A stretch of 64,000 bases of DNA, from NCBI RefSeq assembly GCF_030867095.1, contig NC_081824.1, forward strand, positions 173,670,933 to 173,734,932, written 5' to 3'. Source of the stretch: Alligator mississippiensis. Taxonomy: Eukaryota; Chordata; Crocodylia; Alligatoridae. Position numbers and translations under genes: made by a program. Under the pieces are notes generated by a model, which saw nothing but the letters and a program-made list of their open reading frames with translations, ran no database searches and had not been told where the DNA came from. Of the stretch, positions 7,096-63,945 are shown in pieces (position 1 is the stretch's first letter; each line of letters opens with the position of its first letter).

Positions 7096-7282
7096 AGTGA
7101 CCCACAAACGACTCCCAAACTTTATTTTATGATGATGTATAGTTAAACCAAATTAGGGCCTAAACATTGGTTTTCTATTCTGCCTTTTGTGCAGTTGAGC
7201 TGCATCTGTGTAATGTACAGACAGAATTCAAAGCAGATTCTCAGAGCTCCACTTAACCAATGAAGCTGCTTCTTTGCTTTCT

Positions 7283-8110
7283 TCATAGGCTCATAGGGAA
7301 GTAAGGCTGGAAGGGACACCACAAAGCTATCTAGCCCAGCCCCCTGCTCAAGGCAGGATTGTTCATGACTAAATTATTCTAGCCAAGTGTCTGTCCAATC
7401 TGCTTTTGGAAAATTTCCAAGGATGGACATTTCACAACTTCTTTAGGCACCCTGTTCCAATTCTGGACCACCCTCATAGTCAGAAAGTTCCTCCTAATCT
7501 TAATCTTCATCTGAAATTTCCTCTGCCACAGCTTGAAGCCATTTCTCACAGTCTTGTCCCCTACAGCCATCAAGGAAATCCCATCTCCATCCTTTCTATA
7601 ATGTCCCTCAGGTATCAGAAGACTGTTACCAAATCCCACCCCTGCCCAGTCTTCTTTCCTCCAGACTAAATAATCCCAGTTCTTTCAGCCTTTCTTACGT
7701 AATTTTGCTTTCAAGACCCTTAATCATTTTTGTTGCTCTGTACTGGACTCTTTACATTCTTTCCACATCCTTCTTGAAGTGTGGACCCCAAAGCTGCGCA
7801 CAGTACTCCAGGTGAGTCCTCACTGGCACTCAACTGAATGGAAGAATAACTTCCCTTGATTTGTAAGTGGCACTCTTGTTCATACAACCCAGTATGCCAT
7901 TGGCCTTTTTTGCAACAAGAGCATATGGTGGCTTCATTCCAGCTTGTCCTCAGTCAAAGCTTCTACTGTAAATAATAATAGAGCTAGGATTTAAATTTCC
8001 CCAGTTCTTTCTCTGTAGTACTGCAGCCTAGTCAATCATCCACCAGTCTGTGTTAGTTTATGCAAATATCTTCTTCCAAATGCAGGCCTTTTAACTTGTT
8101 TTAACTGCCC
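7283..8110 (-). mobile_element. CR1 LINE fragment, C-terminal coding part and 3' end
   Basis: On the minus strand it decodes the CR1 ORF2 carboxyl region, including NGFKLWQRKF, RRNFLTMRVVQNWNRVPKEVV and SLEIFQ. It ends at the 3' tail repeat at 7283 (CTATGAGCCTATGAA on the minus strand). The segment 7640-8110 continues upstream into ORF2. The frame is interrupted and the copy is 5' truncated. A further 50 bases of the same LINE resume at about 8525, so 8111-8524 is later insertion. Confidence 0.85.
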
Positions 8111-24855: not shown

Positions 24856-25447
24856 TTGTATATATTTGTAACATTCAACTAGTATATACTTCCCATAGAC
24901 AAACTGTGAAATGCAGAAATGAAATGCATGGCTAAGCCTATTTGAGACTCTCTTGTTCAAAGTTTTACTGAACAGCTTTGGCCATAATAAAGCTATTATG
25001 CCTGAAAATGTAGATCATACAACTGGCAACCTGGAGAAATTCAAAATACATGCATGGATGCAATTCACAACAAACAAGAAATGGAAGTGTCTGGAGGAAA
25101 ATGACCTCAAAAGGAATGGCGAGATTATACTAAGGCTACAACAATAAAGGACCCTGCTGAGAATCAATTAGAGGCTGTGCTTTTTCTGAGTATCACTGGC
25201 ATTCATATTTGAAACCTGCATTCTGGGGACAGTCACAGCCAGAAGGAAATGGATGGTATTTTAGTATGGAGCAGAGTTAGCCACCTCCAGACATACTTAT
25301 ACATGCTGTTTTAAGGCTTGGTCTTTTTGAGAAGTATGGTCACATAGGAGGAAAAGGCAAGAAGGCAGAGGGAAAGGGAAGAAAAAGAGAGAGGGGAATT
25401 GGGTGGAAAGGAGCTTAGAAAACCAAGTGATAGGCATGACACTACCT
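24856..25447. other. non-genic, nothing recognised
   Basis: About 590 bases between two MITEs, with no supported feature. Confidence 0.4.
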
Positions 25448-25906
25448 GGGCACGTCTACACATGCATATTATAAACTCCAGAGCTTACTGCTCTGGGTGT
25501 GCTGTTTGCATGTGAGTCTGGGACCGCAGGATGTTAAGCCAGGTCAGGGCAGCTCTGGCTGACAGGAGGCCACAGGGGTCAGCCTGCCAGCCTGGGGCTT
25601 CTCCCTCCAGCTCAACTTGCTATGGAGGGGCTGGCTGGGTTACCAGGGTGTTTCAGCACAGGGCTAGCTGGCAGGCAGTCCGTGCACTGAAGCACTCTCA
25701 TGCCCCAGCCAGCCAGAGAAGTATCTACATGTTTGCTGCTGTGGAGTAAAAAACTCTACAGCAGGATAGTACTTGTATTTACTCATAAATAAAATTACTA
25801 CCCTGCTGATGACTTAATTAATTTTCTCCAGCCTAAAAGGGGTGCACATATAGACATGAGATATTTACTGCACAGCTAATTAGTCTACTGCATGTAGATG
25901 TGGCCC
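25448..25906 (+). mobile_element. MITE, family C copy 1
   Basis: Begins GGGCACGTCTACACATGCAT and ends with the complement of GGGCCACATCTACATGCAG. The interior matches copies at 51534-51946 (inverted) and 56145-56601: CAGAGCTTACTGCTCTGG, a block of CAGCCAG words, GTGGAGTAAAAAACTCTACA and GGATAGTACTTGTATTTACT. No coding frame. Ends resemble family A, the interior does not. Confidence 0.65.
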
Positions 25907-33955: not shown

Positions 33956-35661
33956 CAGGAGTGGGCAAAGTCTGGTCCATGGGATGGATCAGGCCCATGG
34001 TGGACTCCATTTCCCAGGAGCCCCTGCCTGCATTGCTGCAGCTGGTTTGCATGGATGGGGCTGTGACAGCACGTTTCCATGGAGACCAGTCCCAGCAATG
34101 CTGGCAGGGCATGCAACCAGGCAGGGAGCTGTTCTGGGGCTGGGATCTTGCAGTGGTGACAGCGTGGTTCAGAGCCAGGGCAGAGCTGTGATCTGTTGCT
34201 CGCTTGTCCCAGGCACGGGCAGGCAAGGAGTGGATCACACCTCTGCCGCAGCTTTGGACCACACTGTCACCACCATGAGATCCCAGCACTGTACCTGAAG
34301 GATCATATTTGTGGGAGTCCAGCAGGAAAAAATAATGCAGCAGGGCAACCAGCATGGATTCATAGCAAGTAGATCATGCCTGACCAATCTGGTTTCATTT
34401 TATGACAGGGTCACAAAATGCTTAGACACAGGAGTAGAGGTGGATGTTGCTTTCTTGGATTTTAGCAAGACCTTTGATACGGTATCTCATCCCATTCTCA
34501 TAAATAATTTAAGAGGCTGTGACAGATGTTTACATGGTCTGGTGGGTGGCAAATTAGCTTAGCAGTCGCACCCAGAGAGTGCACACTCTGGAGAGTAGGG
34601 AACGCTTGCAGGCAGACCTGGACAGGTTAGAAAAGTGGGCAGTACACAATAGGATGCAGTACAACAAGGACAAGTGCAGAGTGCTGCACCTAGGACACAA
34701 AAATATCCAAGACACCTACTGGCTGGGAAATGACCCTCTCAGCAGCACAGAAGTGGAAAGGGATCTCAGACTCATAGTGGACTCCAAGATAAACATGAGT
34801 CATCAGTGTGAGGAAATCATCAGCAAAGAATCATCAGCTGCACTTTATCATACATCAGCAGATGCACAACAGACAGAACCAAGGAGGTGATACTTCCCCT
34901 CTACGCAGCATTGGTCAGACCGCAGCTGGAGTGCTGCGTCCAGTTTTGGGTGCCATACTTCAAGAAGGATGTTGATAGACTTCAGAGGGTCCAGAGGAGG
35001 GCAACTCGTATGGTTAGGAGCTTACAGGACAAGCCCTATGAGGAGAGAGTGAGGGACCTGGACCCCTTCAGCCTTCGCAAGAGAAGGCTGAGAGGTGATC
35101 TTGTGGCCACCTACAAATTCATTAGCGGGGCATAGCAAGGGATTGGAGCTGCTCTGTTCACCAGGGCACCTCTTGGGGTAACAAGGAACAGTGGTCACAA
35201 AGTGACAGAGAGAAGATTTAGGCTAGATATCAGGAAAAACTTCACCGTAAGGGCTGCCAAAATCCGGAATGGGCTTCCAAGGGAGGTGGTGCTCTCCCCT
35301 ACCTTGGGAGGTCTTCAAGAGAAGGCTGGATAGGCATCTGGCTGGTCATCTGGCCCCAGCACTCTTTCCTGCCTAGGCAGGGGGCCGGCCCTGACCCAAG
35401 CATCAGGAAGATGGACTACACTGATCTGTTGAGGTCCCTTCTGACCCAAGCATCTATGAATCTATGAAACCTAGAGCAGCTCCCCACACAGCTGTGCACT
35501 GCTGGGGCCTGTCTCCATGGAAACCTTGGCCCCATGGTGTCATGGCCCTATGCCCTACGGCTGCTGGGATCTCTATGGAAACCAGCCACAGCAATGTGTG
35601 CTGGGGCTGCTGGGAAATGGAGTCTGGCCTTCATCTGGATCTGCCATTTTGCCCACCCCTG
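33956..35661. mobile_element. hAT transposon with long inverted ends, split by CR1
   Basis: The left end is CAGGAGTGGGCAAAGTC; the complement of the right end is CAGGGGTGGGCAAAATG. Inverted similarity continues inward for over 100 bp (GACTCCATTTCCCAGSAGCCC, then GGTTTSCATRGAGA). Flanks GCTTAATT (33948-33955) and GTTTAATG (35662-35669) match at six of eight positions, as expected for an 8-bp duplication. Without the CR1 at 34331-35468 the element is about 570 bp, a MITE. Confidence 0.75.
34331..35468 (+). mobile_element. CR1 LINE, internal deletion, nested in hAT
   Basis: Frames decode NQHGFIASRSCLTNLVSFYD, then VDVAFLDFSKTFDTVSHPIL (RT palm), then LQADLDRLEKWAVHNRMQYN, then LVRPQLECCVQFWVPYFKKD, then [19 protein letters not shown]. 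It ends in a TCTATGAATCTATGAA tail. Against the copy at 58815-60336, roughly 190 bp including the FADD box are missing at about 34573-34590. It is 5' truncated and shifted in frame, hence inactive. Same subfamily as 58815-60336, but more diverged. Confidence 0.9.
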
Positions 35662-36599: not shown

Positions 36600-38168
36600 C
36601 CAGACCATTGCACCAGGCAGCACAGTTTGGGAACAAGCAGCCCTCAGTGATGAAAGAACAGGTTAGGGACTATTTAAAAAAGCTGGGTGTATACAGATCT
36701 GTGGGGCTGGATGGGATGCATCTGAGGGTGCTGAGGAAGTTGGCTGATGTGATTGCAGAGCCATTGGCCATTATCTTTGAAAACTCATGGCAATCTGGGG
36801 AGGTCCTGGACAATTGGAAAAGGGCAAATATAATGCCCATCTTTAAGAAAGGGAAGGAGGAGGATCCAGGGAACTACAGACCAGTCAGCCTCACCTCAGT
36901 CCCTGGAGAAATCATGGAGCAGATCCTTAAAGAATCCGTTTGTAAGCACTTGGAGAAGAAGGTGATTAGGAACAGTCAGCATGGATTCACCAAGGGCAAG
37001 TCATGCCTGACCAACCTGATTGCCTCCTATGATGAGATGCAGTGGAGGTAACATACCTTGACTTTACAAAGGTTTTTGGTACCAGTTCCCACAGCATTCT
37101 TGCAAGCAAGCTGAGGAAGTATGAGTTGGATAAATGGACTGTAAAGCGGATAGAAAGCTGGCTGGATTGCTGGGCTCAAGGGGTAGTAATCAATGGCTCA
37201 ATGTCTAGCTGGCAGCCAGTATCAAGTGGAGTGCCCCAGAGATTGGTCCTGGGGACAGTTTTTTTCAATATCTTCATTAGCGATCTGGAAGATGGGATGG
37301 ATTGCACCCTCATGAAGTTCATGACACCAAGCTGGGGGTTATAGTAGATCTAGAGTGACCTAGACAAATTGGAGGATTGTGCCAAAAGAAATATCTAAGT
37401 TTCAACAAGGGCAAGTGCAAAGTCCTGCACTTAAGACAAAAGAATCCCATGTACTGCTATAGGCTGGAGACTGACTGGCTAAGCAACAGCTCTGCAGAAA
37501 AGCACCTGGGAGTTAAAGTGGATAATAAGCTGGATATGAATCAGCAGTGTGCCCTTGTTGCCAAGAAGGCTAACAGCATCCTGGGCTTCATTAGCAAGAG
37601 CACTGCCAGCACATCAAGGGAAGTAATTATTCTGCTCTATTATTCACTGGTGAGGCCACATCCGGAGTAGTGTGTGTCCAATTTTGGGCCTCCCATAAAA
37701 AGGATGTGAACAAGTTGGAAAGAGTCCAGTGAAGGGTGATGAAAATGGTTTGGGGGCTGGGACACATGTCTTATGAGCAGAGGCTGAGGGAACTGCGCTT
37801 ATTTAGTCTAGAGAAGAGAAGACTGAGAGGGGATTTAATAACAGCCCTCAACTACCTGAAGGGGGTTCCAAAGAGGATGGAGCTGTTCTCAGTGGTGGCA
37901 AATGATAGAACAAGAAGCAACGGTCTCAAGTTGCAGCAAGGGATGTTTAGGATGTTGGATATTAGAAAACTTTCTCACTAGAAGGGTGGTGAAGCACTGG
38001 AACAAGTTACCTAGAGAGGCTGTAGAATCTCTATCCTTGGAGGTTTTTAAGGCGCAGCTTGACAAAAAGCCCTGGCTGGAATTATCTAGTTGGGGATGGC
38101 CATATGTTGAGCAGGGTGATGACATCTTGAGGTCCCTTCCAACCCTCATTTTCTATGATTCTATGATT
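36600..38168 (+). mobile_element. CR1 LINE, second subfamily, 5' truncated
   Basis: Several frames together carry the CR1 ORF2 order: [69 protein letters not shown] (palm), [40 protein letters not shown] and [20 protein letters not shown]. It ends TTCTATGATTCTATGATT. The FADD segment is deleted around 37320 and the frame is broken several times. Wording differs consistently from the copies at 34331, 42657 and 58815, so it is a separate, older subfamily. No endonuclease domain is present. Confidence 0.9.
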
Positions 38169-38384
38169 CCTCACCATTCGTTTCTAGCACTGATTACAAT
38201 AAAAGGGCTTAGGGAGGCAAGTAAGAAATATCTCAGTTAAAACCTTCCTTTTTTTTTTTTTGAAAGTTTATAGAAATTGAAGAAAAAAAAGGCCCTGCTG
38301 TGTGCATTTGTCTCAGTGCAGCTTGTTCCCTCTCCCTTGACTTGATTTGAAATCTTTAACATCCTCCAAAGATGACAAAGCTCA

Positions 38385-38892
38385 CTAGGGACAGAACTTG
38401 CACATAAACCAGTGTAAGTGATTGGAAACCCTTTCAAATCTGTAGCACAACTGAAGTTCAGTGCACATAAACTGCTTTCAAAATGGCCAAAACTGGTTTA
38501 AGATAAACCTGGCCGAATGTAGTATCAGACTTAGCTGATTTAGGTTAAATCAATTTATTGAACTTCCCCTCTACCTTAACACACAGTCCCCCAGCATCCC
38601 AGGAAGCTTTGCAGCTCCCCTGCAAACCCCCTATTGCAGTATGGGTGGATTAGCCTTGGCCTAAGCTGTCTGCTCAAGCTGAGCAGGGAGGTATGCTCTA
38701 GCATCCTTCCCCCTCCTCACCATCCTCTCCCCCACTCAGCTTCTGGTCTGGGCTACTGCAGGCATGTGGCTGCATTTCTGGAATCAAAAGTGAAAGTTCA
38801 CTTGCTTATCAGTTCAATCTATGAAACTTAAATTAACCTTGAAAGATTGAATCAATTAAGTCTTGGGCTTTTTGACTATCAGTAGTTACCCT
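38385..38892. mobile_element. MITE-like element (family D copy 1)
   Basis: Starts CTAGGGACAGAACTTGCACA and contains AAACTGGTTTAAGATAAACC, CCCCAGCATCCCAGGAAG and GAATCAATTAAGTC. It ends near GCTTTTTGACTATC. The same order occurs inverted at 62843-63654. No coding frame. Confidence 0.6.
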
Positions 38893-42559: not shown

Positions 42560-44009
42560 TCTAAACATACACATGCTTACTTTGTAGTAAACCTCACTAA
42601 TCATGAGTAAATTTCCTACCTGCAAATGCAAGTAACAAGTTTGCTTTCTATTAATTAGTACTGGGCGCCGCACTTCAGAAGGGATGTGGCCAGCCTGGAG
42701 AGGGTTCAGAGGAGGGCCACCCGCTTGGTGAGAGGGCAGCAGGACAGGCCCTACGAGGAGAGACTGAGGGACTTGAACCTGTTCAGCCTCATCAAGAGGA
42801 GGCTGAGGGGGGGACCTGGTGGCTGCCTACAAACTCATCACGGGAGATCAACAGCAAATAGGCAGAGCTCTTTTCTCCCCAGCACCACCTGGGGTGACAA
42901 GGAACAATGGTAATAAGCTGATGGAGAATAGGTTTAGGTTAGAGATCAGAAGGCAATATTTTACAGTTAGGGTGGGCAAAATCTGGAACCAACTTTCCAG
43001 GGAAGTGGTCCTTGCCCCTACCTTGGGCAAATTCAAGAGGAGGTTGGACGATCACCTGTCTGGGTCTTGTGAACCCAGCATTCATTCCTGCCTGTGGCAG
43101 GGGGTCAGGCTAGATGATCTGTTCAGGTCCCTCCTGACCCTAGATACTATGAAACTATGAAACTATAATAACGGTGCAGTAATGCTTGTGTAGACCACTG
43201 ACCTGCAGCAAATCTGCTCCTGATCAGCTACCCACCAGGGGGTGGGAGATTGCTCCCTGCCCCCAGGAGCTGCCTGCTGCTGGGGCAGGCTCCACCACCA
43301 CAGCTTGGGTGGGGACTATGTCCCCGTGTCCTGTCAGCAGTGACATCCAAGTTTGTTCCCCACTATGCTGTGTGCTTGCAGAGTTGAACAGGGAACAGGC
43401 TTCTAAGCCTCCGCCCTGAACATGGGGTAGGGGCTTGGAACTGTCCTGGTCAGAGACAGGTCCCAGCCCCATGTCCTGATTGAATGATCGAGGCATGGGG
43501 CTTGGAAAGGCCTGCAGGGATGAGTTAGGTCCCAGCCCCCTGCCCCAGTCTGCCAGTGGGGCAGCTAATAGCTGCCTAACCAGTGCCTTGGGACAGGGGG
43601 CCGGGATCTGCATCTCTCCTGCAGCATTTTCCAAGTCCCCTGACCGTGATCAGGGAGCCGGGGCCAGAAGCTCCCTGCTACTGGGGCAGGGGGACATTGA
43701 ACTCACCCTGGAAGCAGGCAGCCCTGGGGACAGGGTGTAATGTCCCAGACCTGGCCAGAAGACAACCGTCTAGTAGTCCAGTGCTCCCTGCCAGCCCCTG
43801 GGCTGGCACCCAGGAGGAGCCTAGAGCTCCCCCAGGTGTCAGCAGTGGTCCATTGCAGGACCGCAGGAAGCAGAAGCAGTTTGTCGCCATTAGCAGCAAA
43901 TCGGCTTCCACTTCCTTGCAAGTGTAGATGCCTACCTGGGAGCATTTACTTGCAAGTAGTTTACTCACAAGTTAACTAATCCCACATCCATTGCATGTAT
44001 AGATGCCCC
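42560..44009 (+). mobile_element. family A element (copy 3), split by CR1
   Basis: The left part has TACCTGCAAATGCAAGTAAC. After the CR1 the family A order resumes with CGGTGCAGTAATGC, GCAAATCTGCTCCTGATCAG, GGTGGGAGATTGCTCCCTGC and AGTAGTTTACTCACAAG, ending TGCATGTATAGATGCCCC. The left terminus is degraded, so the start is approximate. Coding frames in the GC-rich middle are chance. Confidence 0.6.
42657..43166 (+). mobile_element. CR1 LINE 3' fragment nested in family A element
   Basis: Decodes [20 protein letters not shown], then [11 protein letters not shown], then [18 protein letters not shown], then VRVGKIWNQLSREVVLAPTL, and ends in ACTATGAAACTATGAAACTA. It is 5' truncated to about 510 bp. 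Family A sequence stops before it and resumes after it, so it inserted later. Confidence 0.9.
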
Positions 44010-49185: not shown

Positions 49186-49517
49186 AGAGGTCTCACTAGG
49201 GGGGACCAGAAGGGTTTGGGGGAGACCTTGTTTCCCCTAGCGCCCCCCGGGATAACAAGGAATAATGGCCACAAGTTGTTGGAGAGTAGGTTTAGATTAG
49301 ACATCCATAGGAACTACTTCACAGTTAGGGCGGCTAGGATCTGGAACCGACTTCCAAGGGAAGTGGTGCTGGCTCCTACCCTGGGGGTCTTTAAGAAGTG
49401 GCTTGATGCCTACCTGGCTGGGGTCATTTGAGCCCAGTTTTCTTCCTGCCCAGGCAGGGGGTCGGACCTGAAGATCTACAAGGTCCCTTCTGACCCTACT
49501 TCTATGATTCTATGAGA
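49186..49517 (+). mobile_element. CR1 LINE 3' fragment
   Basis: Decodes PPGITRNNGHKLLESRFRLD, RNYFTVRAARIWNRLPREVV and LAPTLGVFKKWLDAYLAGVI, then a 3' end TTCTATGATTCTATGAG. It is truncated to about 330 bp. Closest in wording to the copy at 58815-60336. Confidence 0.9.
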
Positions 49518-49773
49518 TTGTGAATGATATATAGTTCCTCTGTGCTGAGCCAGAACATGTGAAACTGGTATAAGTGCAAAGGATGTCAAAGCCACTGCAA
49601 GACAGAAGCATTGGGGCAATTCTACCCTGAGTAAAAACCAGCAAATTAAGAGTGAACACAGGCTGACAGAGGCATTTGCCATCTTCCACTCACCAGGGGA
49701 GTAAAATAAATATTATTGGAAAAGATTTTAAAAGTAAGAATGCACAATAGCTTCATGCCACTGAGCAGTAGCA
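49518..49773. other. short non-genic spacer
   Basis: No supported feature. Confidence 0.4.
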
Positions 49774-51533: not shown

Positions 51534-51946
51534 GGCCGCATGTATATGAGATTTACTGCGGAGTAAATTAATTAGCTCTGCAGTAAATGTCTCAGTGTCT
51601 ACATGTGCAGGGCTATTAGGCTAGAGTAAACTAATACATTCCACAGTAGCATAGTACTTGTAAATACAAGTTCTGTCCTTCTGCAGAGTTTTTTTACTCT
51701 GCATCAGTGCACGTGTAGACACTGCCCCAGCCAGCCCCTCTGCAGCACATTGCACCATGTTGGAGCAGCCCTGGGCTGGGAGACTGACCCCCGAGACCCT
51801 CTACCAGCTGGGCCTTCTTCAATCTGCCTCAACGTGCCATGATCCCAGGTACACATGAAAACATAGCACCCAGGAGCAATAAATTCTGGTGTAATAAGCA
51901 CCAGAGCTTATTGCATGGAATTAATATGCCCATGTAGATGCGCCCC
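51534..51946 (-). mobile_element. MITE, family C copy 2 (inverted)
   Basis: Its complement follows family C: start GGGCGCATCTACATGGGCAT, then TTCCATGCAATAAGC, CAGGGCTGCTCC, GAGTAAAAAAACTCTGCAGA, AGTACTATGC and end with GCGGCC. CCT flanks both sides (51531-51533 and 51947-51949), a 3-bp target duplication. Confidence 0.7.
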
Positions 51947-55925: not shown

Positions 55926-56144
55926 AACAAAACGTTATTAAGCTTATTTAAATTATTTGACCAGAAAAAAAACCTAACTCCATAAAAAATCATTTTATGG
56001 TTAACCTGAATTGTTTTTTCTTATCTTTCAGAATTGCAAGAGTGAACCAGAAAATTGAATATTTGTAAAGGTCTAGAACTGGTCGAAATTTTAAAACTTT
56101 TTTTAAGGTTAGGAAGCAAACATACTTCTGTTAACTTTTATAAT
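55926..56144. other. short AT-rich spacer
   Basis: Contains TAGAACTGGTCGAAATTTTA, resembling the phrase at 14565; nothing firm. Confidence 0.3.
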
Positions 56145-56601
56145 GGGTGCATCTACACATACATATTAATGCAAAGCAATAAACTCCGCTTATTGCTCTG
56201 GAGTTTATTGATCTAGGTGCACATGCACCTGGGACCACAGCATGTTGAGCCAGATTGGAGCAGCCCCAGCTAGCAGGGGCCTCGGGGATTAGCCTGCCAG
56301 CCCAGGGCTTAATGTGCTGTGGGGAAGCTGACTAGGGCACAAGGTGTCTTAGCTAGGGCCAGTCAGCAGGCAGCCCCTGCACTGAAGCACCCTTGTGCAC
56401 CAGCCAGCCAGGGCAGCGTCTACACATGTGCTGCTGTGGAGTAAAAAACTCAGCAGCAGGATAGTACTTCTATTTATCTGCAACCTGCTGCATAGTAAAT
56501 TAGTTTGCTCTAACCTAACAGGTACGCATGTGTAGTTGTGAAATGTTTACTGCACTGCTGATTAGTCTACTGTGCAGTAAATGCCTCGTGTAGATATTCC
56601 C
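56145..56601 (+). mobile_element. MITE, family C copy 3
   Basis: Begins GGGTGCATCTACACATACAT and ends with the complement of GGGAATATCTACACGAGGC. The interior follows copy 1: CCAGCCAGGGCAGCGTCTAC, GTGGAGTAAAAAACTC, GGATAGTACTTCTATTTA. No coding frame. Confidence 0.65.
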
Positions 56602-57029: not shown

Positions 57030-57696
57030 GGCTTCTGGGAATGAGATTAAAAGTAGAGACGTGATGATGTCTGAAGGGGAAGGAAAACTGAAAGAGTGTA
57101 ATGCATGCAAATCAAGAGAACTGGGTCATCTACAACACAGATTGCTCCTGAAATTGCATTAAATTGCATATTAGACAGCAGTGATATTTTTAATAAGTCT
57201 ATGAAGTTTAGAGTAGTTCCCTAGGAATCTAGAATAACAAATGTAGTGTCAATACTTAGGAAAAGCATAAAAAATGAACTAAACCCATTAGTTTGACCTA
57301 GTAGTATGGAAGATTTTAGTGTTTTTCTGTTTGTGAAGGAAAGAAATTATTAAAGAGCTGCTAGAAAATGGGAAATAGGATAAGATGCAAAATTGGTTTA
57401 CCAAGGTAGATCATGTCAGATTAACTAGATGTTTCTTTGATAAGTGACTGATTTTCTAGTTAAAGGAAATGTAGTAGATATTATCTGTCTGGGCTTTAGC
57501 AAAGCCACACAGGAAACTTGATTCAAATGAGGAAGATGTGATAAGATGCACCCTACGATAATAAGGCATGTAAGGGGATGGCTAAAAGAGACATGGCAAC
57601 AGGTCTTAGGACCAATCTTATTTACTAGTTTCATTAATGACTTTGGAGTAAAAAAATAATGGTATGGTCATAAAATGGCTAATGACACAAAGGGTA

Positions 57697-60655
57697 CGTA
57701 CAGAAGTGCAGGAAGGCACTTACTTGCAACTGCACTATAACTTACACACTTTACACAAAGTGCTAAAAGTCACAGTGTGATTGAACATAAAGGCTGTTTG
57801 GAATTTGGTAGGGGGCAGGTAGGATTGAAGCCTCCCTCCACTAATTGAAGCCAGGCGACAGGGGGCTCTGTCGCACGCCTCCCAGCATGCTCCTCACGTT
57901 CTGGGGACTGACTGCCAGAGACTGTCAAGTGCAGCCAAAGGGGCTAGCCATAGCCAAGCAGTCAATCTGCCTAGAGCTACTGTGGCTGATCCCACCCCCA
58001 GGCTGTCAGTGACTGTCTCTCAGCCCAGCCCTGCCTTTTCCCTCTGGCCAGCTGAGAGCCACAGCCTGGCTGGGGGGGAGGGAGAGGGAAGGTAGGATGG
58101 TGTCTCTCCCCGCATTGCCCCTGGGACTGGAGGAGCCAGCAGCCTGGCCAGGTGTGCTATGTGTAGGGTCTCTCCCCCAATTTGTTCCCCTGAGACTGGG
58201 AGATTTAGCAACCTGCCCATGGCTAGGCATGTACCTCAAGGGTTTGGTACTGCTCTGATGCTAAGTATCTTCTGAGAGTTTCTGAGAACCTGAAGTTCCT
58301 GTTGTCTGCAGCTCTAAAAATTAAATGAGGGGTGTCTTTTAAAAATACCATTCAGAAAAAGAAACAGTTTTGGGGATGCCCTTCCTCACCTCTGCTCCAC
58401 CCTGGTCACTTGAAGGGTTTGGAAATCAGTTGGATCTCCTTAGCATAGAATTCCTTGGTATAACCAGTTCCTATGTTGCCCTTGAAGCCCCCTGCCATGA
58501 CCAGCCAGAGTCCCCTACAACAGTACTATCATTAGGGCCCTACCAAATTAACAGCAGAAGTGGGGTGCACTGTAGTTCCTTTACTTTTCAGGTTCCCCTG
58601 CACACCCCTCCTCCCCACTCCCCACTGATGATTGGTGAAAGGACCCCACTTGCAAATTTTTCCTGATTGCTAGGGAGCTGAAAACTGCAGTTTTTAAATA
58701 TGGTGCCATTTTTGTCAGGGAGAAACACTGACCCCCTTTCCCTCCCCCCAGCCAGGCTGTGGCTCTCAGCTGGCCAGAGGAGGAGGCAAGGCTGGGATGA
58801 GAGGCTGTCATTAACAACTGCTGAAGGCACTGGCCAACATCATTGCAGAGCCACTGGCGAGAATATTTGAAAGCTCGTGGTGCACAGGCCAAGTCCCGGA
58901 GGACTGGAAAAGGGCCAACGTGGTCCCCATTTTCAAAAAGGGGAGGAAGGAGGACCCTGGCAACTATAGGCCGGTCAGTCTCACCTCCATCCTTAGCAAA
59001 GTCTTTGAAAAAATTATCAAGGCTCACATTTGTGAGAGCCCGGCAGGACAAATTATGCTGAGGGGAAATCAGCACGGGTTCGTGGCAGGCAGATCGTGCC
59101 TGACCAGTCTAGTTTCTTTTTATGACCAGGTTACAAAACGCCTGGACACAGGAGGAGGGGTGGATGTCGTATACTTAGACTTCAGGAAGGCCTTCGATAT
59201 GGTATCCCACCCCATACTGGTGAACAAGTTAAGAGGCTGTGACTTGGATGACTACACAGTCCGATGGGTGGTGAATTGGCTAGAGGGTCGCACCCAGAGA
59301 GTCGTGGTGGATGGGTCGGTTTCGACCTGGAAGGGTGTGGGCAGTGGGGTCCCACAGGGTTCGGTCCTTGGACCGATACTCTTTAATGTCTTCATCAGTG
59401 ACTTGGACGAGGGAGTGAAATGTACTCTGTCCAAGTTTGCAGATGACACAAAGCTATGGGGAGATGTGGACATGCCGGAGGGCAGGGAACAGCTGCAGGC
59501 AGACCTGGATAGGTTGGACAAGTGGGCAGAAAACAACAGGATGCAGTTCAACAAGGAGAAATGCAAAATGCTGCACCTAGGGAGGAAAAATGTCCAGCAC
59601 ACCTACAGCCTAGGGAATGACCTGCTGGGTGGCACGGAAGTGGAAAGGGATCTTGGAGTCCTAGTGGACTCCAAGATGAACATGAGTCGGCAGTGTGACA
59701 AAGCCATCAAAAAAGCCAATGGCACTTTATCGTGCATCAGCAGATGCATGACGAATAGGTCCAAGGAGGTGATACTTCCCCTCTATCGGGCGCTGGTCAG
59801 ACTGCAGTTGGAGTACTGCGTGCAATTCTGGGCGCCGCACTTCAAGAAGGATGCGGATAACCTGGAGAGGGTCCAGAGAAGGGCCACTCGTGTGGTTAAG
59901 GGCTTGCAGACCAAGCCCTACGAGGAGAGACTAGAGAAACTGGATCTTTTCAGCCTCCGCAAGAGAAGGTTGAGAGGTGACCTTGTGGCTGCCTATAAGT
60001 TCATCACAGGGGCACAGAAGGGAATTGGTGAGTATTTATTCACCAAGGTGCCCCCGGGGGTTACAAGAAACAATGGCCACAAGCTAGCAGAGAACAGATT
60101 TAGATTGGACATTAGGAAGAACTTCCTCACAGTTAGAGTGGCCAGGGTCTGGAACGGGCTCCCAAGGGAGGTGGTGCTCTCCCCTACCCTGGGGGTCTTC
60201 AAGAGGAGTTTAGATGAGTATCTAGCTGAGGTCATCTAGACCCAGCACTCTTTCCTGCCTATGCAGGGGGTTGGACTCGATGATCTATTGAGGTCCCTTC
60301 CGACCCTAACACCTATGAATCTATGAATCTATGAACTTGGGGACAAGGCCAGCCCAGCGCTCAGGCAGCAGAGAAGACAAACTTTGCCTATGCAAGGCTA
60401 GCGTGCAGCACAGTGCAAAGGCTCATGGGATGCAGGAGGAATCACCCAAAAGTAACACTTGGTGTGAAACTGCACACAGGTCAGTTAAGGTGCTCTACCC
60501 TAGAGTGCCTTCTTCTGATGGCTCATCAGATGAGGGTTAACTTTTCACGCTATCAGCCAATTTAAAAGCGCTCTTTCAGCCGTGAATGTTTGTTATATTA
60601 CAGCTGTAGGGCACTTTTGGGGGCCTCATCATGCAGTAAAAATGTAACCTCTGTA
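57697..60655. mobile_element. long-inverted-repeat (fold-back) element nested in L3-like LINE, split by CR1
   Basis: The left end is GGGTACGTACAGAAGTG; the complement of the right end is GGGTGTACAGAGGTTAC. CAAAG or CAAA occurs at both junctions. A long inverted repeat lies inside: arms around 58008-58110 and 58718-58813, including a perfect 37-bp pair (58041-58077 with 58744-58780). The right arm is interrupted by the CR1 and resumes at 60337 (CTTGGGGACAAGG, GCTCAGGCAG). Without the CR1 it is about 1.4 kb. No coding frame. Confidence 0.6.
58815..60336 (+). mobile_element. CR1 LINE, young, 5' truncated, about 475-codon open frame
   Basis: The frame is open from 58815 to the TAG at 60237-60239. 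RT blocks in order: [60 protein letters not shown] (palm aspartates), GVPQGSVLGPILFNVFISDL, then the catalytic FADDTKLWG at about 59436-59462. The thumb and tail follow: [60 protein letters not shown] and VWNGLPREVVLSPTLGVFKR. The 3' end is (TCTATGAA)n at 60312-60336. The endonuclease and ORF1 are missing through 5' truncation, so it cannot move itself, but no stop lies in the kept part. A CR1 ORF2 would be about 900 or more codons. It sits in the inverted-repeat arm of the element at 57697-60655. Confidence 0.95.
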
Positions 60656-60724
60656 CACCCGCAAAGTGTGATGGCACCAGCAATACAGAAGAGGCTCAGA
60701 ATATCATAAGGAGAAAATCTGGAG

Positions 60725-60914
60725 TCCCACACATGTGCTTTAATGTGCATTAGTCTATTTTAATGTACATTAAAGCTCTATTTAAAAAAAAGTATGCTTT
60801 TGCTAATTCACATTAAAATAGGCTAATGCACCTTTTTCTAGTATCTCACAATGGAGGTACTAAATTTAATGCGCATTAGCAAAGCACATTAATGAACATG
60901 TAGACACATCCCCA
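60725..60914. mobile_element. small MITE nested in L3-like LINE
   Basis: The left side TCCCACACATGTGCTTTAAT mirrors the complement of the right side, GGGGATGTGTCTACATGTTC then ATTAATGTGCTTTGC. The centre is TTTAATG-rich with an (A)8 run. Ends carry the same TCTACATG word as families A-C. Confidence 0.55.
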
Positions 60915-60995
60915 GAGAACTTGATTAGTGTAAGTGGACTGAAACTGAACGCTGTGTCATACACATATACAAAATTATAAGAATAGATACTACTA

Positions 60996-62043
60996 CAGGC
61001 AACCCCCGCTTAGTGCTCGTAATTGGTTCTGGAAAAACTGAGCGCTAAGTGAAACAGTATTAAGCGAACCCATTTCCCCATAGGATTTAATATAAATAAA
61101 GATAATGGGTTCTGCACCACCTGCCGACCCAGACTCCGCGCTCCTGCAGCCCCACCCAGGGCCCTGCTGGCCCGGGCCCTGCGCTCCTGCCGGCCCTCTC
61201 CCAGCAAGGCACCATGTGGGCTCTGCCAGGGAAGACATCAGCTCCTCCTAGCCTCATTGTTCCCCCGCCAGCCCACACCCGCCGGCCACCAGTGCACCTG
61301 TGCACGGCCGCAGCCGCCCCCCCCATGAGGACTGAGTCGGGGCTCTGGTGTGGGGTAAGCAGTGGGGCCACCCACCTGCCCTTGCCCTGCTTTGCCCAGC
61401 GAGGGCTCACTCTAGGGCTCCCAGCACTGGAACGAGCTGCCGCCGCCAGATCACTGCAAGTTTGGGACAGCGTCCGCACCCCATGGGTGAGTGTATGACT
61501 GGAGTGGAACAAGGCACAGGCTGCAGCCCAGGGGCAGGGGAGCTCTGTGGGCTCAGCTTGCACTGACTCAGGTCCTGCGCTCCTGCTGGCCCTGGCCTTG
61601 GGCCCCATGCTCCTGCTGCCCTGCTGGCCCAGGCCCCATGCTCATGCCCCCCACCTGCCTCTTCTCACTGCTGCCACTGCTCCTCCCCACCCGCTGGCCA
61701 CTCAGCAGGATTAAATGTAAATATTCTGTGTTCCTGGGCCCCACCAGCTTGGGCTTCAAGCTCATGCTCTGCACCCTCCCCTTCTTGCTGCTACTACTCC
61801 TCCTCGCCCAATCCAGCACCATGTGCTGGAGTGGACTCCAGGCTCCTGATGCCCCTTCCTGGGCTCCTGCCAGTTGCCACTCACCACTTCCCTCACCACC
61901 GCCACTGCCACTGCTTCTTCCCATACCCGCGCTGAGTGTTATAATAAAACGCTCTCAGAGCTGAGTGAAACTAGGTAGGTATTTTAAATGAGTGTTAGAA
62001 CAAAACTGCGGTAAGTGAAACCATGTTAAGAGATGGTTGCTTG
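60996..62043. mobile_element. Tigger-like (Tc1/mariner) element with GC-rich interior
   Basis: The left end CAGGCAACCCCCGCTTAGTG pairs with the complement of the right end, CAAGCAACCATCTCTTAACA. TA flanks both sides (60994-60995 and 62044-62045). The subterminal GGTTCTGGAAAAACTGAGCG is Tigger-like. The interior 61105-61930 is very GC-rich with frames open in several phases and no transposase motif. Removing it plus one TA rejoins the L3-like LINE as ATACTACTACAAGC. Confidence 0.8.
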
Positions 62044-62143
62044 TACAAGCTAATGAACCATCTGGCAGAAATGACATAGAAGGAGAAAACTTTGTGTACT
62101 AGTCTATCACAGGATGATTATGAGCCACCAGTTTGATTTTTTT

Positions 62144-62578
62144 TCCCATAGCATTGTTCCATTTTTATTTCATAGTTGGTAAAGAGTACTTTATTATCAT
62201 GATTCAGTGTGAAATCTAGTTTATTATTATACATTTTTGTATAGTTTGCATTAGGATTCGCTCTTGGCTACTGCTGTCACTGCAGTTAATCTTTTATAAC
62301 AGTGTAGTTTTGAATGGGTGACTTCTGAGATGAGCTCTTTACCTGAAGGGCTCTAAAGAACTACAATCTTTCAGAGAAAAGCATGAACAATCAGCCAAAG
62401 CTCCAGATAACAAGATTTTTAACGTGTGCAACTTGTCTATCCTAAGGGTGATATTCTGCCAATGTGTGCCCATAACAGTGTGAAACCCATGTTGTATCTG
62501 GTTTATCCCAGTAGAACCGGAGTCACTAGAAATATACATTCATCTGACAACATCTTTGACTACATACAACCAAGAAGA
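62144..62578. other. unidentified insertion within L3-like LINE
   Basis: About 435 bases separate GAGCCACCAGTTTGATTTTT from AATGCTAAGATGTATTAGCA, which are close neighbours in this LINE type. No inverted ends or coding frame recognised. The part near 62450-62520 recalls the hairpin repeat at 3244. Confidence 0.4.
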
Positions 62579-62842
62579 CAAATGCTAAGATGTATTAGCA
62601 AAGACAGGGAATTATTAATATCACTATACAAGGCACTGGTGAGACTTCATCTGGAATCCTGTGTTCAATTCTGGCCATCCCTGTTCAAAGAAAGGTGATG
62701 TTAAACTTGAACAGGTGCAGAGAAGGACTGTTAGGATGATAAAGGGAATGGAAAGCATATCATAAGAGAGGTGACTAGAAGAACTGGGATTATTTAGCCT
62801 ATGAAAACAAAGGCCAAAGGGGAGATAAGATTGTGCTCTGTG

Positions 62843-63654
62843 GCTAGGTACATACAGTCAAAAAGTCAGAAGCTGAATCAATTCAGTCTTTTCAGACTAG
62901 TGTAAGATGCATAGATTCAATTAAAACACAAGTGAACAGACATTTACCTTTTATTCAGGAAATGCAGCCACATTCTTGCAGTGGCTCAGGCCAGAAACAG
63001 GGGAGGGGAGGGAGGCACTAGAGTATAACTCTCTGGATGTGTTCACTTCCTCTTCCTACTGCCCCTGAGGTCTCTGGGATTTGCAGTCCAGAATTACAGC
63101 AGCAGAACTCTGTTGGGTTGCTCATCATTTCCTTTTCCTGCTTCCAGGTGCCTGTGGGATTTGTAGTCCACAGTCACAGCCAGCAGTAAGTTCAAGCAGA
63201 GGAAGGGGTGTTTAAACCCCTTCCCTGGCTCCAGACCCGAGATGGGGTTTGCCTGAGGGGGCAGACCCCTGCAGACTGGGTTGCATCCCCAGCTGGATTT
63301 GCTCCCCTTGTCAGCTGGCCCTCACTGCTCCAGCTAGGGGTCAGAGGGAAGGAGACAGCCCTGCTCTCTGGAGCAGACAGCACAGCCCAGCCCAGCCCAG
63401 CCCAGGGCTGGAAAGCATGCTGGGATGCTGGGGGACTGTGATTTTACTTGAACCAGGAAGGGGTCTGGGACAGAAGTTTCATAAACCGGTTTGACCCAAA
63501 TCAGTTAAGTTTGATGCTGCATTCAACCAGGTTTATCTTAAACCAGTTTCAGCAATTTTGAACTGGTTTATGTGCACTGAACTTCTGTTCTGTTACAGGT
63601 TTAAACCAGTTTCTGATCACTTAAACCAGTTTATGTGTAACTTCTGTCCCTAGC
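62843..63654. mobile_element. MITE-like element (family D copy 2), nested in L3-like LINE
   Basis: Ends are GCTAGGTACATACAGTC and, as complement, GCTAGGGACAGAAGTTAC. CTGTG flanks both sides (62838-62842 and 63655-63659). The order matches family D copy 1 in reverse: GAATCAATTCAG, GGGACTGTGA, AACCAGGTTTATCTTAAACC, GTTTATGTGCACTGAACTTC. It includes an (AGCCC)n tract at 63384-63405. Frames in the GC-rich middle are chance. Confidence 0.7.
63384..63405 (+). repeat. (AGCCC)n short tandem repeat
   Basis: More than four perfect AGCCC units inside the family D element. Confidence 0.85.
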
Positions 63655-63945
63655 CTGTGAGTTCACCTGAAAGGGTAAACATGAGGGACAGAAGAAAGTT
63701 AGTTGATCTGAAGCGCAATCTTGACACACAAACAACTGGTCATTAACTGGCCACAAAGTTTTGTACTGGAAGTTAAAAAAAGAAATTCCATCTGTACCAG
63801 CTGCGGGATTCTGGAACCCATTTCCAATGGAGTGTTTGGGAAAAAATAACCAAACTTGCTGCAGGATGAAGCTTGATGACTTTATGAAAGGGATTATATG
63901 ATGATGAAGACGACCATAGCTGGGTACTTGTCACAAAGACCGAGG

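Follow-up and report, generated by a model that had tools for sequence, protein, structure and literature searches.

An old CR1-clade LINE read in order across five later insertions at one locus of the Alligator mississippiensis genome

Insertions of one transposable element into another order the activity of the elements involved, and this principle is used in the transposition in transposition (TinT) method (PMC3014933). In crocodilians, CR1 subfamilies were ordered via nested insertions with the application of TinT; the same source describes at least seven ancient lineages (A-G) of amniote CR1 retroposons and CR1 relics that are still detectable in crocodilians (PMC4316615). For a DNA transposon of the PHIS superfamily, NuwaII, a target duplication that can be read as either 3 or 5 bp, C|TNA|G, is described (PMC4482050). 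Here, a window of 64,000 nucleotides of the Alligator mississippiensis genome (contig NC_081824.1, positions 173,670,933-173,734,932; 2,346,462,532 bases in 195 contigs) was analyzed, in which positions 57030-63945 contain remnants of a long interspersed nuclear element (LINE). With high confidence, these remnants represent one old, broken LINE with five insertions that came later; one of these, a fold-back element, was in turn the target of a young CR1. The six LINE pieces, A, B1, B2, C, D and F, all lie on the plus strand and are parted, in this order, by the fold-back element with the CR1 nested in it, a miniature inverted-repeat transposable element (MITE), a Tigger-like element, a 418-bp block and an element of a family designated D.

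The translation of the nested CR1 served as a ruler and was searched (tblastn) against the presumed LINE pieces, which were taken as separate sequences. Piece A (57030-57691), a decayed reverse-transcriptase region, matched amino acids (aa) 16-212 of the CR1 at positions 57186-57692 with an expect value (E) of 0.001. Piece C (62046-62136), which ends with the first copy of a TTTGA repeat, matched aa 277-294 at 62084-62137 (E 0.17), and piece D (62555-62841), which opens with the second TTTGA, matched aa 309-387 at 62588-62822 (E 2e-13, and 2e-20 at the DNA level). The 3' part of the LINE, piece F (63656-63945), matched aa 418-473 at 63731-63898 (E 0.01). These four pieces were colinear with the frame of the nested CR1 and on the same strand. 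The similarity to the CR1 reverse transcriptase of open reading frame 2 (ORF2) places the old LINE in the CR1 clade, and by the same similarity both the LINE and the nested insert resemble the amniote CR1 retroposons (PMC4316615). Two translated stretches of piece D gave no match in Pfam. The LINE is probably 5'-truncated, appears to start near 57030 and presumably has no present function. Parts of the sequence just upstream of it (56144-56582) recur in the window at 25447-25890 and 51551-51727 with 70-71% identity.

The spacing of the pieces was compared with paralogous empty sites, i.e., other genomic copies of the same LINE that do not contain the inserts. A query of 57030-57810, comprising piece A and 119 bases of the fold-back element, gave 92 first-look genome candidates, some of which were fold-back ends, and 40 were scored; the DNA matches of piece A to the paralogs had 64-79% identity. 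Piece D gave 343 candidates, of which 40 were scored and the listed ones had 70-78% identity. Twelve paralogous loci (L002, L003, L005, L006, L066-L070 and L088-L090), which were top or chosen matches and not a random sample, were used for the comparison. The LINE pieces that could be found in them were in the same order and at near insert-free spacing, and the alignment diagonals were nearly constant. Across the fold-back, MITE and Tigger-like elements jointly, seven of the 12 loci matched the end of piece A on the diagonal and six of these also matched piece C or D, with a diagonal shift of -24 to +18 bp compared to more than 4,000 inserted bases in the window. From the end of A to D the shifts were -24 (L002, with an E of 1.3 for the D match), -8 (L003), -12 (L006), 0 (L069), +4 (L088) and +6 bp (L089), and from the end of A to C they were -11 (L002), -19 (L003), -6 and +9 (L069), +18 (L088) and +8 bp (L089). 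The matches to the end of A had an E of 1.2 in two of the six loci used, L002 and L088. Across the 418-bp block, both C and D were present in eight loci with a shift of at most 14 bp; three of the C matches (those in L002, L069 and L089) had an E of at most 0.001 and the other five were weaker, and one D match had an E of 1.3. D and F, on either side of the family D element, were both found in six loci, five of which shifted by at most 16 bp. In L005, the piece D match listed as best belonged to another CR1 copy, which lay off the diagonal, and the match on the diagonal was weaker. Alignments to the joined flanks crossed the junctions of the fold-back element, the block and the family D element in several loci and that of the Tigger-like element in L069. 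The window LINE lacks ∼60-90 bp that are present between 57505 and 57604 in several paralogs.

Piece B1 (60661-60720) was found on the diagonal in five of the 12 paralogs, with E ranging from 2e-5 (L003) to 8.2 (L069). Piece B2 (60913-60995), the 83 bp from the MITE to the Tigger-like element, showed no individual resemblance to the matching interval of six paralogs (z at most 1.0). Its assignment to the LINE is based on spacing, as 54-104 bp are required between B1 and C in the paralogs: this gap measured 77 bp in L003, 74 in L002, 54 in L005, 104 in L088 and 94 in L069, a mean of 81 compared to 83 bp in the window, as derived from B1 and C matches that were partly weak. The shortness and weakness of B1 and B2, together with the presence of several other CR1 fragments in the window, would favor the alternative of a chance order among LINE fragments that are not related to each other. 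This is extremely improbable, given that the paralogs keep the same order at near insert-free spacing and that 31 matches at E <= 0.05 were obtained with the real sequence against a mean of 0.6 per set in 40 dinucleotide-shuffled sets. The colinearity with the CR1, the paralog spacing and the shuffles thus bear out a sequence-only reading of this DNA, which had proposed a single LINE with five interruptions, one of them holding a CR1. Pieces from different LINE families or from non-adjacent positions, which would speak against that proposal, were looked for by the same three approaches and not encountered. The five-insert structure was retained from that reading, and corrections were made to the boundaries of the block, the MITE and the family D element and to the contents of the fold-back element beyond the CR1.

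The fold-back (inverted-repeat) DNA element occupies 57692-60660 and has a GGGTGTGTACAGA-like terminal inverted repeat (TIR). Its left and right ends were present together in other genomic copies, and its termini were aligned with those of three fetched copies (L071-L073). Within it, 57967-58088 pairs with 58734-58818, and the pairing continues at 60336-60368. As the second arm resumes on both sides of the nested CR1 (58819-60335, plus strand), the CR1 lies inside this arm. The CR1 is young and 5'-truncated and contains a stop-free frame of 473 aa with a reverse-transcriptase domain (RVT_1, E 1.6e-30 in Pfam); at least 39 other dispersed copies with 96-97% identity were among the matches listed. 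The intact domain and the high identity to a dispersed family identify the insert as CR1. In the fold-back copy L071, an empty site was present at this position; the matched ends were 15 bp apart, compared to 18 bp expected. As previously read from the sequence, the fold-back element holds a CR1; it also contains two further segments. The first is a low-copy loop segment (58204-58532), the larger part of which had one other match, on contig C16, with ∼78-81% identity; this match was without the neighboring repeat fragment. The second (58533-58714) is a fragment of another dispersed repeat, for which 17 listed matches stop at one common point and all five fetched copies continue past the right edge, the point at which the arm resumes in the window. 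Further CR1 fragments were observed in the window at 7282-7910 (minus strand), 34298-35468, 36729-38169, 42661-43166 and 49201-49524, with 59-76% identity to the nested CR1.

The family D element (62842-63655, GGCTAG...CTAGCC) is a non-autonomous DNA element with 8899 candidates in the genome, and the near-full listed copies had 80-84% identity. It is flanked by a duplicated TGT (62839-62841 and 63656-63658). The flanks were tallied in 26 clean copies out of 30 rows, after four unclean ones were dropped, and 2000 re-pairings served as control. The three bases adjoining GGCTAG...CTAGCC agreed in 16 of the 26 copies (re-pairing mean 1.0, maximum 5), and all five flank bases agreed in seven (mean 0.5, maximum 4). 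A G preceded GCTAG in all 26 copies and a C followed CTAGC in 24; the outermost of the five bases agreed in 16 and 14 copies, compared to 21-23 for the middle three. Based on these tallies, the G and C are most likely part of the element and the duplication is TGT, a 3-bp duplication as in the copies, which is a better reading than the CTGTG proposed before. The 3-bp target duplication is a feature that family D shares with PHIS, which includes PIF/Harbinger, and the same 3-or-5-bp ambiguity is described for NuwaII (PMC4482050). In contrast to NuwaII, a TNA core was not dominant in the family D copies: compared to C|TNA|G, the outer C was found on the left in 16 of the 26 copies and the outer G on the right in 14, but the core T and A in at most 10. 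No transposase was found inside the element. Genome-wide, the transposase domain PF13359 (DDE_Tnp_4) was abundant (2994 candidates, 150 scored), and the four best matches listed had no internal stop codon. A second, diverged family D copy was observed at 38385-38891 (minus strand) in two pieces with 71-76% identity, immediately downstream of a further old CR1-like LINE (∼36608-38169).

Tigger and pogo elements are members of the Tc1/mariner superfamily, with a TA target and a CAGGCA-type terminal repeat. The element at 60996-62043, which we take to be Tigger-like, is non-autonomous, has the ends CAGGCAACC...GGTTGCTTG and gave 782 genome candidates. It shares the target and the type of terminal repeat of Tigger and pogo; it differs from them in that it is ∼1 kb long and GC-rich, and no transposase was noted in it, although none was sought. 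In the window, TA flanks the element at either end, as it does in 12 of 23 distinct copies, in accord with the TA duplication of the sequence-only reading. This target duplication is as expected of a Tc1/mariner element. The MITE (60721-60912) has a GGGTGTGTCTACACATG-like TIR with a decayed left end; the listed copies had 83-87% identity, its termini were seen in eight fetched copies and a clean 3-bp duplication was recognized by eye in three of these. In Rfam, the hairpin of the MITE had five miRNA-like matches, and two other weak ones were obtained, all below the gathering score. The miRNA-like matches were situated in the palindromic middle of the MITE (60741-60833) on both strands.

Several observations weigh against the reading of the locus as one interrupted LINE. 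Pfam gave no match to piece A, and the 3' tail of the window LINE matched the CR1 3' end no better than shuffled sequences (36 of 300 were as good). Among six paralogs, L068 (none of 300 shuffles as good) and L069 (two of 300) resembled a CR1-type 3' end and the other four did not. The paralogs are old and gapped, several single-piece matches were weak (E > 0.05) and were counted by position alone, and L068 shifted by 62 bp after piece D. No paralog convincingly crossed the MITE junction in the joined-flank alignments. The sequence of B2 could not be recognized as LINE: its joint score against the six paralogs was equaled by 14 of 300 random chunks of the window. The target duplication of the fold-back element, an imperfect CAAA repeat at both flanks, is not clean in the window, and neither is the 3-bp duplication of the MITE. 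Finally, the empty site of the CR1 was present in just one of the three fetched fold-back copies.

Very likely, an ancient, long-dead and probably 5'-truncated CR1-clade LINE was a neutral landing ground, into which four DNA elements (the fold-back element, the MITE, the Tigger-like element and family D) and the single-copy block were inserted independently. The inserts other than the block belong to dispersed families. The four DNA elements would have moved in from elsewhere by cut-and-paste, presumably by the action of a transposase in trans; no transposase domain was found in any of the four. The young CR1 entered the fold-back element much later. The pieces still read in order because each arrival left LINE text intact on both sides.

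The block (62137-62554) had been described as an unidentified 435-bp sequence; it measures 418 bp and is flanked by TTTGA on both sides. Its left edge opens with T8, and when read on the minus strand it contains AATAAA 19 bases before A8, so that it carries the marks of a retrocopy: a poly-A end, a polyadenylation signal and a target duplication. When the mononucleotides were shuffled 20,000 times, a fraction of 0.0003 of the shuffles had T8 at the edge (0.00175 when repeated with local composition) and 0.0023 had TTTGA at the opposite edge. The AATAAA in place was less telling (0.035, and 0.095 with local composition). Across the whole window, 25 runs of at least eight A or T were counted. 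A DNA search of the genome to E 10 recovered the block alone, with neither another copy nor a parent gene, and because an identifiable parent gene was absent the block was not filed as a retrocopy. Our best single guess, for which the chances are about even, is that the block may be an antisense retrocopy of an mRNA 3' end without a parent. The alternative, a piece of host DNA that was captured or the final remnant of a transposon of low copy number, has an equal chance of being correct. The missing parent and second copy speak for this alternative, and so does the TTTGA repeat, which is short for L1-type retroposition. In addition, the neutral rate reported for crocodilians, 3.9e-10, is low enough that the 3' untranslated region of a parent might stay recognizable (PMC4263362). 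The T8 and TTTGA at the edges and, to a lesser degree, the polyadenylation signal argue against it, and no TIR was seen by eye. The more specific version of the retrocopy reading is doubtful. In this version, LINE machinery that uses poly-A would have acted in a genome rich in CR1 and made a poly-A-tailed copy of an mRNA 3' end in ancient times, and the parent would be gone or unrecognizable. A solo long terminal repeat was considered and dropped, since inspection by eye showed no edges of the TG...CA type accompanied by a matching repeat. The block is mildly interesting solely because CR1 in chicken is described as having generated a seemingly negligible number of retrocopies (PMC3136929).

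The nesting shows that the LINE preceded each of the five inserts and that the fold-back element preceded the CR1. Like TinT, this uses element-in-element insertions to order the activity of CR1 and other elements (PMC3014933, PMC4316615). TinT as described there is statistical and draws on many nested insertions genome-wide, whereas this single locus gives a partial order only, as the five inserts are siblings and none is inside another. Divergence (K) was calculated against the majority of copies. The CR1 had a K of 0.026, based on the five best copies of 39 listed and therefore biased young, and the LINE had values of 0.221 and 0.214 (eight and six copies). In between were the MITE with 0.083 (eight copies), family D with 0.092 (29 copies; 0.080 without CpG-like sites), the Tigger-like element with 0.139 (12 of 24 fetched copies; 0.064 without CpG-like sites) and the fold-back element with 0.133 at the left end (six copies) and 0.241 at the right end (three copies). 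The CR1 is clearly the youngest layer and the LINE value is high, which would favor a complete and dated succession that covers every layer. Such a succession is improbable. Apart from the sibling relation of the inserts, the differences at non-CpG-like sites are close together (5/111 in the MITE, 37/607 in the Tigger-like element and 39/516 in family D), and the order depends on the measure: when all sites are used the Tigger-like element is above family D, and when CpG-like sites are excluded it is below. The figure for the fold-back element is based on three to six copies and differs between the two ends. The fold-back element, the MITE, the Tigger-like element and family D could not be reliably ordered relative to each other, and the dated order of activity claimed for the locus in the sequence-only reading was not obtained. 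At the crocodilian substitution rate of 3.9e-10 per site per year (PMC4263362), the age of the CR1 would be ∼44-67 million years. Absolute ages for the older layers were rejected, as the LINE would come out at more than 500 million years, which is more than a few-copy consensus can carry.

The locus alone dates nothing and leaves the view of how these elements work unchanged. It is an ordinary example of genome sediment, and sediment of this kind has already served to order transposon activity. It provides a clean teaching example of an old retrotransposon that is readable across later insertions, and its insertion points can be scored for presence or absence in other crocodilian, bird and turtle assemblies.

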